This document shows, in pieces, positions 24,017-42,707 of a stretch of 56,120 nt of DNA. Positions within the stretch are counted from its first letter, which is position 1; each line of letters opens with the position of its first letter. Under the pieces are notes generated by a model. It saw only the letters and a program-made list of their open reading frames with translations. It had not been told where the DNA came from and did not search any database. The stretch is from an uncultured Prevotellaceae bacterium (GTDB lineage: Bacteria; Bacteroidota; Bacteroidia; Bacteroidales; Muribaculaceae). The translations under genes and the position numbers were made by a program. The DNA lies in the NCBI GenBank assembly GCA_946406035.1, contig CAMJJG010000011.1:1-56120 (forward strand), given 5' to 3'.

Positions 24017-24061
24017 GAGGATGCGTCCTCGCGGCTGGCAGTGCCGCTGGGACGCATCCTC
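24017..24061 (-). terminator. Terminator of the cobalamin-riboswitch operon
   Basis: A perfect 12-bp stem (24017-24028 with 24050-24061) contains a further GCGGC/GCCGC stem. The minus strand continues TGTTTTG. It lies 47 nt after the DUF4465 gene's stop codon. Confidence 0.65.
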
Positions 24062-24107
24062 GATTCATGGTTACTATATACTATAATGCTGTGTGTTGTC
24101 GTGGTGG

Positions 24108-25085
24108 CTACTTGATGACCTTGGCGGTGCTGGTGGTGCCGTCGCTGTAGGTGGTAACGACTACATTCACGCCGTCAAAGGGCTTGTCGCTCATCATGCC
24201 TGCCATGTTGACGTACTTCACACCAGCGACTTGCTTGTCGGCATTGACGGTCTCGACGCTGGTCATATTGCTCTTCACCTGGAACTTGTCCATGCAGAAG
24301 TAGCTGGCCGTATTCATGCCGTAAGCGCCCGAGTCGGTCGAATTAAGGGTAAAGTAAACCGAGGTTACCTCGCCCAGGCTAGACAAGTCAAAATAGGTCC
24401 AGTCGTTCAAGGCGTTGAGCTGGCCATTGACATACTCGACGAGCTTGATGCTGGTGCTCTTCTCGTTGCCCAGGGCATCCACACCGACGGCAACCAACTC
24501 AAAGTAGTCACCCTCCTCAAAGGGGCGTGCCATACCGTCGCCATGCATGCATCCGTAGTAGGGCCAGGGATGGTTGCAGACGTAAACACCAGCGGGCGTG
24601 AATGCCATCTGGCCATCCTTGTCCATGAACATCACCTGGTTGCTGGGGCCTTCCATGGCCCAGCTGCTGTAGTAAGCGACGAGATAGGGCTCGTCGGGGT
24701 CAGCGCTGACCGAGCCGTCGGCATTGATGACGCAACCGCCACCAGCCATGCAGCCACCGAAGTTTGTCGTCCATGAAGCGCTGCTGCCGGGCATGCCATA
24801 GTCCGTCTGGTCGCCACCGATGGCGATGGTGAAGCCGTCCCAATAGGCACCGCCCCACGATGCGCCTTCACCATCGATGAGGTGGGAGAGCATGAACTCG
24901 CCATTCTGGTCGCCGAACTCCAGCCAAGTGTAATCCACGTCGTTGTAGGTTCCGGTCCAGATGCCGTTCTCGTTATAATCAATCGTGGCGGGATTGAGCG
25001 GCATGCTCAGGTCGAGGGTTACAATACCAGCCCACATGGCCGATGCCATCATCAGGCTTGATGCAAGAGTAAAAATCTTTTTCAT
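24108..25085 (-). CDS. DUF4465 secreted protein with T9SS-like C-terminal tail
   Basis: This 325-residue protein has a signal peptide (about 1-19) and a beta-rich DUF4465 domain. Its typical pieces are TWLEFGDQNGEFMLSHL, an aromatic YWDGFTIAIG, and DWTYFDLSSLG..TSVYFTLNSTD. The last roughly 40 residues (VKYVNMAGMMSDKPFDGVNV, then VVTTYSDGTTSTAKVIK) match the pattern of a type A T9SS sorting domain (Y-x-x-x-G...P-x-x-G-V-x-V...K-V-I-K). It should be exported and displayed on the cell surface. DUF4465 proteins recur in cobalamin-controlled loci of Bacteroides, by my recall, and this gene is the third in the riboswitch operon. A role in binding corrinoids is inference. The start at 25085 is the first ATG that gives a signal peptide. 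Confidence 0.8.
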   Translation of the reverse strand: MKKIFTLASSLMMASAMWAGIVTLDLSMPLNPATIDYNENGIWTGTYNDVDYTWLEFGDQNGEFMLSHLIDGEGASWGGAYWDGFTIAIGGDQTDYGMPGSSASWTTNFGGCMAGGGCVINADGSVSADPDEPYLVAYYSSWAMEGPSNQVMFMDKDGQMAFTPAGVYVCNHPWPYYGCMHGDGMARPFEEGDYFELVAVGVDALGNEKSTSIKLVEYVNGQLNALNDWTYFDLSSLGEVTSVYFTLNSTDSGAYGMNTASYFCMDKFQVKSNMTSVETVNADKQVAGVKYVNMAGMMSDKPFDGVNVVVTTYSDGTTSTAKVIK

Positions 25086-25132
25086 TCTGTCTTCATTATT
25101 ATAGTTAAACATGCGATTATCTTTTCTTTTTT

Positions 25133-26806
25133 TCAGTTGCTGGACAGCAACTTGTCGATGAGGGTGGTGAGGTCGTCGATCGTGATGCGCTTGTCACCGT
25201 TGACATCGGCTGCTGCCGGGTCATAATTGGCTAGTTGGGATCCCAGCAACACGTCGATGAGGCTGGTGATGTCGTCGATGGTCACCTTGCCGTCCATGTT
25301 CACGTCGCCTGGGGTGGATGCCGCGGTGACTGTGACAGTAAACGTGCCGCTGTCCTGTTTCCCGTTGCTGTCGGTGGTGAGGGTGACAGTCGTCTGCCCG
25401 GGTGCCACGGCGTCGATGAGCAGTTCCATGCCGCTCACCCTGGCTCGGGCCACACCATCGTTGGCCGATGTGGCCGTTGTCACGGCAAGTGCAGCCATGT
25501 TGTCGGCATCATGGATTGCATCCAGCAGGTTAATGGTGTGCTGGCCGCCTGCCGCCATAGTCACATCGCCAACTTGAACCGTGGGCCCATACAGGTCAGG
25601 ATAAACGGCGATTGCCGCAAACCAGTAGGCGTCGCGCAGGCGCACCAGCTGTTTCAGGCTGCGTGATGGCGCATCATAGAACAGCACCCAGTTGTGGTTG
25701 AATATCTGATAGGCATACATTGGAGCCGCCTCGGTGGTCTGGACCACCAGGTCGCCCGTGTGGGGGTCAAAACTCAGTGCCGACGCATACAGCCCCTGAT
25801 GGTTGCGCGTGCCGTCCCAGTTCACCTCGGCAGCCTCGGGCAGGTCGATGTAGTGGTCGGTCAACTGCCGCTTCTCAAAGTCGTAGCAGCTGATGTGGTT
25901 CTGGTACTCCTCGTGATAGTAATACACTTTCTCGTCAACAGGATCGACTGTTAGCATGCGAGCACGCCACGCGCCCCACGAGCTCAGCGCCCCGCACGTG
26001 TCGTCGAGCGGGTGCACATCCTCGACCGTTAGGGTGACAGGGTTAATGCGCGTGAAGTCAGCCTCATAGGGCCCGCCGCCAAAGTCGTATATCTCGCGGC
26101 TGTTGTTGGCCACATACAGGTTGCCGCCAGCCGTGACCAGCACGGTGACGATGTTGGGAAACGGCAGGGTAGTGACCACTTTGTCGCTGGCGGGGTCAAT
26201 GACATGCAAGCCCCGTCCTTGCTGCACGGCAAACACATACTGCCCAAAGCGCACCATGTCGCCGCATTGCTCGGTGTACAAGCTGTTGTAATCGCCGCGG
26301 GCACTAGACTGTGTCCCCGCGATAGGGCCTGTCGTGGACATGGTGGTGACGTCTAGCACCATGATTCCGGCATTGGTGGCAATATACCCCTTGGTGGGGC
26401 TGACGGCGCAGTAACAGCGCCCGTCATACACGCTGTCGGGCGATTGGCCAAACCTCAGCAGACTAGCCTGTTGCTGCAACGTGGTGGCATCGAGCACGGC
26501 CAGCCTGGAACCCATGGTGCTGCCTGACAACTCATTGCCGTTAGCTTGCTTGCTCACGATGTAGAGGCGGCCTCCATAGAGTTGCCCGTGCTGGGTGGTC
26601 ACGCCTAGCTGGGTGTTGGGGTTGACCATCGCATAGGCGTTATACTCCATCTCGTCATAGTCATAGTTGTAATAATTGATGGAGCCCTGATTGGGGCCGT
26701 AACGGTCCTCGTTGATAAAGAAGACACCGTTAGTAAACGTGAACCCCTGGGCCCACGACGTGAAAGCCAACAACGTGGCAAGTGCGGTCAATAGACTAGT
26801 TCTCAT
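25133..26806 (-). CDS. BtuG-like YncE/DUF5074 beta-propeller with C-terminal dockerin-like repeats
   Basis: This 557-residue secreted protein has a signal peptide (about 1-20, no lipobox cysteine). A seven-bladed propeller region at about 22-385 begins NGVFFINEDRYGPNQGSINY, very like the start of BtuG, the surface cobalamin-binding partner of BtuB. An Ig-like domain follows at about 395-495. Two dockerin type I-like calcium repeats end the protein (DVNMDGKVTIDDITSLIDVL and DVNGDKRITIDDLTTLIDKL). Its place in a B12-riboswitch operon supports a corrinoid-capturing role. Known BtuG proteins are lipoproteins, so the dockerin-like tail is an unusual anchor. It overlaps the upstream gene by 11 bp. 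Confidence 0.82.
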   Translation of the reverse strand: MRTSLLTALATLLAFTSWAQGFTFTNGVFFINEDRYGPNQGSINYYNYDYDEMEYNAYAMVNPNTQLGVTTQHGQLYGGRLYIVSKQANGNELSGSTMGSRLAVLDATTLQQQASLLRFGQSPDSVYDGRCYCAVSPTKGYIATNAGIMVLDVTTMSTTGPIAGTQSSARGDYNSLYTEQCGDMVRFGQYVFAVQQGRGLHVIDPASDKVVTTLPFPNIVTVLVTAGGNLYVANNSREIYDFGGGPYEADFTRINPVTLTVEDVHPLDDTCGALSSWGAWRARMLTVDPVDEKVYYYHEEYQNHISCYDFEKRQLTDHYIDLPEAAEVNWDGTRNHQGLYASALSFDPHTGDLVVQTTEAAPMYAYQIFNHNWVLFYDAPSRSLKQLVRLRDAYWFAAIAVYPDLYGPTVQVGDVTMAAGGQHTINLLDAIHDADNMAALAVTTATSANDGVARARVSGMELLIDAVAPGQTTVTLTTDSNGKQDSGTFTVTVTAASTPGDVNMDGKVTIDDITSLIDVLLGSQLANYDPAAADVNGDKRITIDDLTTLIDKLLSSN

Positions 26807-27923
26807 TGCTCAATAGTTTGTCGATAAGTGCTGTTACGTCCGCGATGTTGACATGGCCATCCAGGTCAACGTCGGCTGCTATGACGTCAAGGCCCTGGAT
26901 GTCACCACCCAACAGGTAGTCGATCAGGGCTGTGACGTCGGCGATGTTCACATGTCCATCACCATCAACGTCGCCAGCCAGCAAGGGTACTGCGTCGGGG
27001 TGCAGATCGATGGCGCCACACACCTCGGTCGAGGTCTCGCCGAGCCATCCGCAGTAATACATCTGTCCCGTATAGACCTTGATGAAATCGATGTGGTCCA
27101 GTTCCACGGGATTGCCGTCCTCGTCAATGGCCCAGTCGATTTTGAAGCCAGGCTCCTGGCCATTGGGCAGATTATCGACGTAACCCTCGCCCAAGAAGGG
27201 CTGGAACCAGTTCTTCCCATTACCGTTGCTCAAGTCAATAGCAGTATTGGGTAACTTGGTGCCCTTGAACGTGAGCACGGTGTCCTCGATCCACAGGGGC
27301 CAGTAGGGCTGGCTATGGAATGTGTTGCGCCACACGTGACCGCTGGTGCTGTCGGCCACCTGGTCGTTGCTCGTCCAGTACACATAGCTCGTGTCGTTGA
27401 TAAAGTTCCACTTCTCGTGAGGGGTGCGTGGCTTGCTCTCGTCGGGCTTGTAATAGGTGATTTCATAGTTGAGCTGGCTGCGGTTATGGGAATCGCCCCT
27501 GATTTCATACCACAGGTCGCCCTCGCCGGGCAGCCCGTCACCGTCTATGTCAACACCCACCACGATGATGCCAGGCTCGCAACTGCCGCCTGACACATTG
27601 GGCACTGCTTCGCTCTGGATGGCGTTACCATAAATCTTCACATCATAGTCGTGCCTGTTGATCACTGGATGGTCAAAGCCGAACACGATGTAGCCGCCAT
27701 AGCTGCCCAGGCTCACCGAGCCGTTGACCCTGCCGCACAGGTTGGCCTCGAGCTGGGCAATGATGCTGTCCTGGGTGTAGCCGGGCTTATAGGCTGGGAA
27801 AATGTTGACAAATTGCCCTGGCGCCGGCAGGTAGTCATACACACGGGCGATATAGGGCGAGTTGCCGGCGTTGGCCAGCAGCATGATGGTCGTTGCTAGG
27901 GCTAGAAATATCGATTTGTTCAT
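26796..27923 (-). CDS. Secreted surface protein of the cobalamin operon, with dockerin-like repeats
   Basis: This 375-residue protein has a signal peptide (about 1-19). Its single large domain opens YIARVYDYLPAPGQFVN and contains GSYGGYIVFGFDHPV, GSCEPGIIVVGVD, DGLPGEGDLWYEI and NYEITYYKP. I recognise it as the domain of cell-surface proteins often found beside BtuB and YncE/BtuG-like genes in Bacteroidales. Asp/Asn-rich DVDGDGHVN loops in the last 65 residues form two dockerin-like repeats. It is the first gene after the cobalamin riboswitch, 203 nt downstream of the aptamer. A corrinoid-binding or complex-forming role is inferred from context only. Confidence 0.75.
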   Translation of the reverse strand: MNKSIFLALATTIMLLANAGNSPYIARVYDYLPAPGQFVNIFPAYKPGYTQDSIIAQLEANLCGRVNGSVSLGSYGGYIVFGFDHPVINRHDYDVKIYGNAIQSEAVPNVSGGSCEPGIIVVGVDIDGDGLPGEGDLWYEIRGDSHNRSQLNYEITYYKPDESKPRTPHEKWNFINDTSYVYWTSNDQVADSTSGHVWRNTFHSQPYWPLWIEDTVLTFKGTKLPNTAIDLSNGNGKNWFQPFLGEGYVDNLPNGQEPGFKIDWAIDEDGNPVELDHIDFIKVYTGQMYYCGWLGETSTEVCGAIDLHPDAVPLLAGDVDGDGHVNIADVTALIDYLLGGDIQGLDVIAADVDLDGHVNIADVTALIDKLLSNEN

Positions 27924-28126
27924 GATGACATTATTTATTTATATTTTACAGTATTGGCTACGTGAGTCAATATTTTTATTCTAAATATCGATAATCCAAT
28001 GCGGCATCATCATCGGTCGTGTGTCGCCACTCGAGACTGTTAAGAAAATGGTCGGCTGTTACGGGCCGCATCATCTACTTCGCCAGGGTTCAAATGCCGC
28101 GTGAACCACGATATTATGGCCGTGTG

Positions 28127-28312
28127 GAGGCAGGTCTTCTGACTTCTCCCTCATCGCGACGGCGCCTTCCCGGTGATGATGCAGCAACAGGAGTGTTGCA
28201 ACCAGTGGCATGATGCCGAGCGATGTGTCGTGGGGAGTTACAGCAGCGGGTACTGTCCAGGAGTTTCACCTGGTTCCCTTTTAATTCCTGCCATGCACAA
28301 TTGGGCAGGAAA
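28127..28312 (-). promoter_or_regulatory. Cobalamin (adenosylcobalamin-type) riboswitch aptamer
   Basis: Read on the minus strand, all the conserved parts appear in order. They are GGGAACCAGGTG with AAACTCCTGG (28257-28278), the GCTGCTGTAACTCCCC segment, GCCACTGG (28202-28209), GGGAAGGCGCC (28161-28171), and the 3' B12 box AAGTCAGAAGACCTGCC (28129-28145). This is a full-length cobalamin riboswitch. It precedes three surface-protein genes by about 200 nt, so high cobalamin should shut the operon off. No obvious intrinsic terminator follows. A GGTTCA/TGAACC hairpin at 28087-28107 could belong to the expression platform. Confidence 0.95.
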
Positions 28313-28336
28313 CCTCAACACGTGATATTCACGATG

Positions 28337-28367
28337 CAAAATTACGGCTATTTTGCCAATTAGCCAA
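28337..28367 (-). promoter_or_regulatory. Promoter of the cobalamin-riboswitch operon
   Basis: On the minus strand, TTGG (28364-28367) is 19 nt before the -7 box TAATTTTG (28337-28344). The transcript should begin near 28330, directly ahead of the aptamer. Confidence 0.75.
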
Positions 28368-42568: not shown

Positions 42569-42598
42569 TTGCCAGTTCGGGAAAAAGCAGTACCTTTG
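42569..42598 (+). promoter_or_regulatory. Promoter of the SRP RNA
   Basis: TTG (42569-42571) and TACCTTTG (42591-42598) are separated by 19 nt, the preferred Bacteroidota spacing. Initiation falls at about 42604, the first base of the RNA's closing stem. Confidence 0.85.
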
Positions 42599-42603
42599 CA
42601 GCC

Positions 42604-42700
42604 GGGTAAGTCCTACACGGCCAGCTCCCTCCCAATCCCCCAGGTCTTGACCGAAGCAAGGGTAACGAGGTCGTAGCGGCGCGCTGTAGCTCACTTGCCC
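42604..42700 (+). ncRNA. ffs: Signal recognition particle RNA (4.5S, small bacterial type)
   Basis: The two ends pair (GGGTAAGT with ACTTGCCC, then CTACA with TGTAG) into a rod of about 97 nt. The conserved domain IV core is visible in the middle as CCAGGTC-TTGA-CCGAAGCAAGG, followed by GTAA. This matches the pattern CAGGTC...GGAAGCA of SRP RNAs, with a tetraloop variant. The RNA binds Ffh for co-translational targeting of membrane proteins. It has its own promoter and ends in T7. Confidence 0.85.
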
Positions 42701-42707
42701 TTTTTTT
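42692..42707 (+). terminator. T-run terminator of the SRP RNA
   Basis: The closing stem of the RNA is immediately followed by seven T (42701-42707), so the mature stem probably doubles as terminator. Confidence 0.7.

Follow-up and report, generated by a model that had tools for sequence, protein, structure and literature searches.

Gut communities are shaped by competition for cobamides, and the Bacteroides capture systems described in the papers cited here are lipoproteins mostly encoded beside BtuB. Cobamide operon 1 of Bacteroides thetaiotaomicron runs btuK1-btuK2-btuH1, an internal riboswitch and btuB1-btuGH-btuJ1, and BtuH, BtuJ and BtuK1 of this species bind cobalamin (PMC12751083). More than 80% of the btuH homologues in a published panel sit in operons with btuB (PMC8941943), which makes the operon dealt with here a minority arrangement. 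It lies in a stretch of 56,120 nucleotides (the window), positions 1 to 56,120 of contig CAMJJG010000011.1 (assembly GCA_946406035.1), from an uncultured Prevotellaceae bacterium, and consists of a cobalamin riboswitch followed by genes of the btuH, btuK and btuJ types (H, K and J below). This gut bacterium, akin to rumen species, appears, judging by its sequence, to turn on this putative B12-capture operon under B12 scarcity.

What we consider the probable explanation is a cobalamin-repressed btuH-btuK-btuJ operon without btuB, whose exported binders trap cobamides for a BtuB-BtuG-BtuH set encoded on a different contig (C51) of the same genome. When cobamides are scarce, the riboswitch would release expression of the operon; the binders, of three unrelated types, would be Sec-exported and free of lipid anchors; at or near the surface, H and K would be held by their C-terminal dockerins and J by its C-terminal, sorting-type tail; and the trapped cobamides would be handed to the BtuB-BtuG-BtuH set made from its own, second riboswitch operon.

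The operon and the separately encoded BtuB

The preliminary description of this DNA, which was made from the sequence alone, spoke of a complete B12 aptamer with its own promoter, and the observation is confirmed: RF00174 is matched over its full length and far above the gathering score (Table 1), and a promoter-like element, which we take to fit the Bacteroides type TTTG/TAnnTTTG, precedes it. TAnnTTTG lies 192-209 nt 5' of the B12 box in the window (at -200) and in 37/37 related leaders, a count behind which there is no shuffle control and in which some leaders have a second match. We infer that cobalamin represses the operon through this riboswitch. As for its other end, a consensus terminator scan of the region returned 3 matches versus 3.5 in shuffles, i.e., no excess over chance for the probable terminator read there.

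Gene 1, entered in the preliminary description as a "secreted protein", does carry a signal peptide but is not anonymous, being, on its matches to PDB sequences (the H-domain in 8blw at 6.7e-53 and BtuH2 in 7biz at 2.4e-34), a BtuH-like B12-binding domain protein in which 6/8 published BtuH B12 contact residues are identical; its dockerin scores 40.8 bits against PF00404, above the cut-off. Gene 2, which overlaps gene 1 by 11 nt, has a propeller matching PF16819 at 243.3 bits (cut-off 27.2) and a dockerin likewise above the PF00404 cut-off. This propeller had been called BtuG-like, and a comparison of its fold with BtuG had been proposed; the predicted structure, however, is nearest to BtuK1 (19-22% identity in structure alignments), and an 8-sequence profile of gene 2 finds BtuK1 among PDB sequences (1.7e-12, chiefly residues 26-90), whereas no BtuG chain appears among the matches up to E 1 with the single sequence or E 0.1 with the profile. 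A profile comparison with the BtuG encoded on C51, a separate and lipidated one adjoining BtuB, yielded just a weak N-terminal match (probability 10.7, E 0.0029), and gene 2 has neither a btuB in its operon nor a lipobox. BtuG was thus rejected as its identity, and the propeller should be called BtuK-like.

The DUF4465 assignment of gene 3, by contrast with that of the propeller, stands (PF14717, 118.5 bits, cut-off 25), with PDB matches to 4jqr (1.8e-21) and to BtuJ2 in 9i2l (4.8e-10); the HI-loop tyrosine motif reads YGMNTASYF, and its pattern matched 33/37 J sequences. The true start of gene 3 is probably, as in its orthologues, an internal ATG (at 25085), which widens the gap behind gene 2 from 20 nt as called to 47 nt. 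The first 40 residues of all three window proteins are free of Cys, so that the lipoprotein signal test (BtuH, BtuK) came out negative; a few proteins of related loci do have a Cys within or before the hydrophobic core (e.g., K of L065 and J of L067), which by eye does not form a lipobox. The trio of ORFs (open reading frames) is as first described, except that the BtuH identity of gene 1, the dockerins on genes 1 and 2, the lack of a lipobox in all three proteins and the internal start of gene 3 had been overlooked.

No btuB was found among the ORFs of the operon, just as the preliminary description had it, nor does the window's contig have a BtuB match. The search of the whole genome for btuB that it proposed, in a metagenome-assembled genome (MAG) of 2.23 Mb in 69 contigs that is 74.7% complete, gave a single match at E 1e-50, on C51, where one of the four cobalamin riboswitches of the MAG (window, C51, C26 and C12) precedes btuB (698 aa), btuG (388 aa, lipobox present) and a btuH whose product has a dockerin (404 aa). 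A BtuB match is present in 89/91 genomes of the genus and in 43/43 of the more complete ones. The riboswitch on C26 (L024, G000:C26 9482-14839) stands before a pair of TonB receptors that flank what we take to be a CbiK-like protein, and the genes after the receptors are presumably for corrin synthesis, a locus possibly coupling uptake to cobalt insertion; the one on C12 precedes a gene which we take to be BtuR/CobA-like.

Table 1. Features of the operon, in window coordinates
Feature	Position	Strand	Details
BtuB-free cobalamin operon	24017..28367	minus	three ORFs behind the riboswitch
Promoter-like element	28367-28337	minus	TTG at 28367-28365, 20 nt, then TAATTTTG at 28344-28337
Cobalamin riboswitch aptamer	28332-28112	minus	RF00174, 108.6 bits (gathering score 31.5), model 1-189 of 189
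Gene 1, btuH-like	27923-26796	minus	375 aa; signal peptide without lipobox; BtuH-type B12-binding domain, residues 22-308; C-terminal dockerin, 26978-26811
Gene 2, btuK-like	26806-25133	minus	557 aa; signal peptide without lipobox; beta-propeller, residues about 25-403; Ig-like domain; C-terminal dockerin, 25312-25145
Gene 3, btuJ-like	25112-24108	minus	334 aa as called; DUF4465 domain; 52-residue C-terminal tail, 24266-24111
Probable terminator	24061-24017	minus	perfect 12-bp inverted repeat, then TGTTTTG; read in the sequence 3' of gene 3

Elsewhere in the window, at 42597-42704, there is a Bacteroidales small signal recognition particle RNA (RF04183, 99.6 bits).

Distribution among relatives and history

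Scanning genome contigs once with the 8-sequence profile brought up 38 related loci. In 36 of them the B12 box, H, K and J follow each other in this order, all on the same strand and uninterrupted by any BtuB-like ORF, while L093 shows the same order up to a contig end inside K and L094 (26% identity) lacks it. H and K are fused in 24/37 loci and separate in 13/37, and a dockerin pattern flagged 12/13 separate H, 12/13 separate K and 21/24 fused proteins, the misses being dockerin-like by eye (L072, L079 and L092) or truncated at the contig end (L093). A K tree of 40 rows (L093 and L094 left out) needs at least two changes between the fused and the separate state; with its overlong outgroup branch it gives them no direction. 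Where record titles give a host, it is a ruminant, and the labels are Muribaculaceae, Prevotellaceae, Porphyromonadaceae or Bacteroidales. The btuB-btuG-btuH operon, or its end, lies about 6-8 kb upstream in 6 loci. The operon also occupies two or more genomic settings, one with neighbours which we take to be nrdG-like and topA-like (L058, L066, L070, L071, L074 and L084), another with what are presumably arginine-deiminase-like and HIT-family-like genes (the window and L068).

Within a sample of 150 genomes (the window's own, 90 congeners and 59 from other genera), a K orthologue above 500 bits was found in 36/90 congeners and in 0/59 genomes of other genera, where the best match reached 153.7 bits. 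BtuB is on the same contig as K in 20 of the 36 carrier congeners (11.5 to 53 kb away) and on a different contig in 15. Of the 36 congeners with a BtuB that shares 86% identity or more with that of the window's genome, 35 carry the operon (the exception being G052), as does none of the other BtuB-bearing congeners, and by this confinement it marks one clade.

Sister-species loci provide a glimpse of how such an operon might have come about, even if the six of them were picked for a K-like match near BtuB and do not amount to a random sample. All six have BtuB and a K with a tail and no dockerin; in L103-L107 a riboswitch stands before K, beside the btuB operon, and Rfam confirms at least two cobalamin riboswitches in each, whereas L108, where Rfam was not run, showed no B12 box ahead of K. 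J follows btuH inside the btuB operon in three of them (L105, L107 and L108). Probably a btuH duplicate joined btuK and btuJ in a btuB-free operon, and the tail of K gave way to a dockerin preceded by an Ig-like domain.

C-terminal modules and rival explanations

By eye, J, present in 36/37 loci, ends in the terminal tail in 30, in a dockerin in 2 (L067 and L089) and otherwise in 1 (L087), with 3 cut by a contig end (L060, L061 and L065); as tail and dockerin thus substitute for each other, on J as well as on K, it may be that both serve sorting or attachment. Counting the one in the window, the 52-residue tail has 22 occurrences in the MAG, wherever in its ORF each may lie. A search for a recognised type IX tail gave 7 weak PF18962 matches in the MAG, 0 of them above the cut-off; the type IX component SprA is present (619 bits), and the J tail is unmatched by known models. 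A recurrent tail of this kind might be an undescribed C-terminal sorting signal.

The probable explanation is favoured, among other things, by the finding that 35/36 carrier congeners have BtuB, and the idea of a stand-alone capture layer, put forward in the preliminary description, gains by comparison from the btuB-free riboswitch operon, the BtuB elsewhere in the MAG and the same order in relatives, even though its propeller is not a BtuG. Several observations nevertheless pull the other way. One carrier, G063 (85% complete), has no BtuB match; no cohesin in the MAG exceeds the cut-off (best 15.9 bits); the 12 J tails scanned had no sensible Pfam or NCBIfam match and matched no type IX model; and 2/8 BtuH contacts are changed in gene 1 (Y510 and F401). 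BtuH2 and BtuG2 did not co-purify robustly (PMC8941943), so that even for B. thetaiotaomicron a physical hand-off can only be presumed, and gene 2 may not bind at all, because BtuK2 of that species failed to bind in spite of its similarity to BtuK1 (PMC12751083).

It is this last result, together with the mere 19-22% identity noted above, that speaks for a partly lapsed function, in which cobalamin regulation has been kept while gene 2, maybe along with others, has lost cobamide binding or serves a different ligand; as H retains most of its contacts, J its HI loop, and 35/36 clade members the operon, this seems quite improbable. More credible, if still tentative, is that H, K and J are shed, free or on vesicles, and trap cobamides afar in the manner of protein siderophores, to be drained by BtuBG, with the dockerins gripping matrix or other cells and not the producer. 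The missing lipoboxes would suit such release, and vesicle-borne BtuJ of B. thetaiotaomicron is reported to supply cells with cobalamin (PMC12751083); that BtuJ, however, gets to vesicles as a lipoprotein, which the window proteins are not, and dockerin and tail would favour attachment over free release.

Compatible with the probable explanation, as a special form of it, would be dockerins joining H and K to multi-cohesin surface scaffolds in a cellulosome-like B12-capture complex. H and K have dockerins throughout the related loci, and cohesins above the Pfam cut-off occur in 35/91 genomes of the genus (41/91 at E 0.001). In G054 a protein with four cohesins and a dockerin (L109, G054:C7 3471-5279; 111.3 bits) stands tail-to-tail with genes that we take to be btuFCD-like, and in G075 a similar multi-cohesin protein, as two overlapping ORFs (L116, G075:C12 3601-5870), stands beside presumed homologues of these. 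The window's own genome offers an ORF of 927 aa on C41 (L096, G000:C41 1334-4117), with four Big_2 domains, two dockerins and three cohesin-like segments, which is also the MAG's best (below-cut-off) Pfam cohesin match; a profile of genus domains, one that mixes accepted cohesins with domains that Pfam rejects, matched the segments at 85, 54 and 17 bits and 0/200 shuffled copies, and a PDB sequence search with them returned no cohesin, though their fold may yet be that of one. This ORF is a candidate scaffold, and a cohesin scaffold for these dockerins is possible. Against it stand the subthreshold cohesin score of the MAG, the presence of cohesins at E 0.001 in only 19 of the 36 carriers (with complete-looking genomes among those without), the 100 dockerin matches of the MAG at E up to 0.1, which make clear that the module is not peculiar to B12, and the 17 cohesin neighbourhoods examined in 13 carriers, where 0 have a B12 box and only those in G054 and G075 adjoin btuFCD-like genes; of the small dockerin proteins near congener cohesin matches, 1/7 matched Pfam Cohesin, below the cut-off. 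We regard such a complex as unlikely, and the same doubt applies to its fuller form, in which H and K, often as one fused two-site protein, would be docked on multi-cohesin scaffolds and B12 concentrated there, instead of on lipoproteins, before passing to the separate BtuBG.

Comparison with described systems

If the probable explanation of a btuB-free capture operon feeding a separate BtuB set is right, a clade of mostly ruminant-derived Bacteroidales has split capture from transport, with three binder families in one operon, no lipid anchors and dockerins on two of them. Through this operon one could test whether accessory binders work when untied from BtuB and which partners the great many dockerins of these bacteria have, and the natural H-K fusions offer proteins with two putative B12 sites.

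Taken one by one, the binders have precedents. Gene 1 shares its B12-binding domain, with six contacts of the eight, with BtuH2 (BT_1956; PDB 7biz; PMC8941943) and the H-domain of BtuG1 (8blw), and differs in having no PKD domains and no lipobox and in its extra dockerin. Gene 2 has the propeller fold and an N-terminal sequence stretch in common with BtuK1 (PDB 9s6c), with low identity elsewhere, an added Ig-like domain and dockerin and no lipobox; unlike BtuG1/2/3, it lacks a BtuB partner gene, a lipobox and a PDB match to a BtuG chain, the lipidated BtuG of the MAG being a separate gene on C51. Gene 3 resembles BtuJ1 and BtuJ2 of the DUF4465 family (PMC12751083, PMC13398666) in its domain and HI-loop tyrosine, whereas J here bears a C-terminal tail (or dockerin, in L067 and L089) in place of the N-terminal lipid. 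As in the cohesin-dockerin assembly of cellulosomes, H and K are secreted proteins that end in type I dockerins, but the cargo here would be putative B12 binders, and cohesins, the putative partners, are patchy in the genus.

The whole is most akin to operon 1 of B. thetaiotaomicron: binders of the K, H and J types stand under cobalamin riboswitches in both, a two-domain fusion of BtuH exists in both, and the K-K-H part, which comes before the btuB part and has a riboswitch to itself, resembles the btuB-free operon. There, however, the binders are all lipoproteins, the genes are together with btuB and the fusion is of G to H, whereas the operons of the window's type have no btuB and no lipoboxes, bear dockerins or a tail, and fuse H to K with H first. 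Each of the binder families is already known; no description of a BtuB-free, non-lipidated, dockerin-bearing H-K-J arrangement was found in the open-licence papers searched, judged mostly by titles and abstracts.

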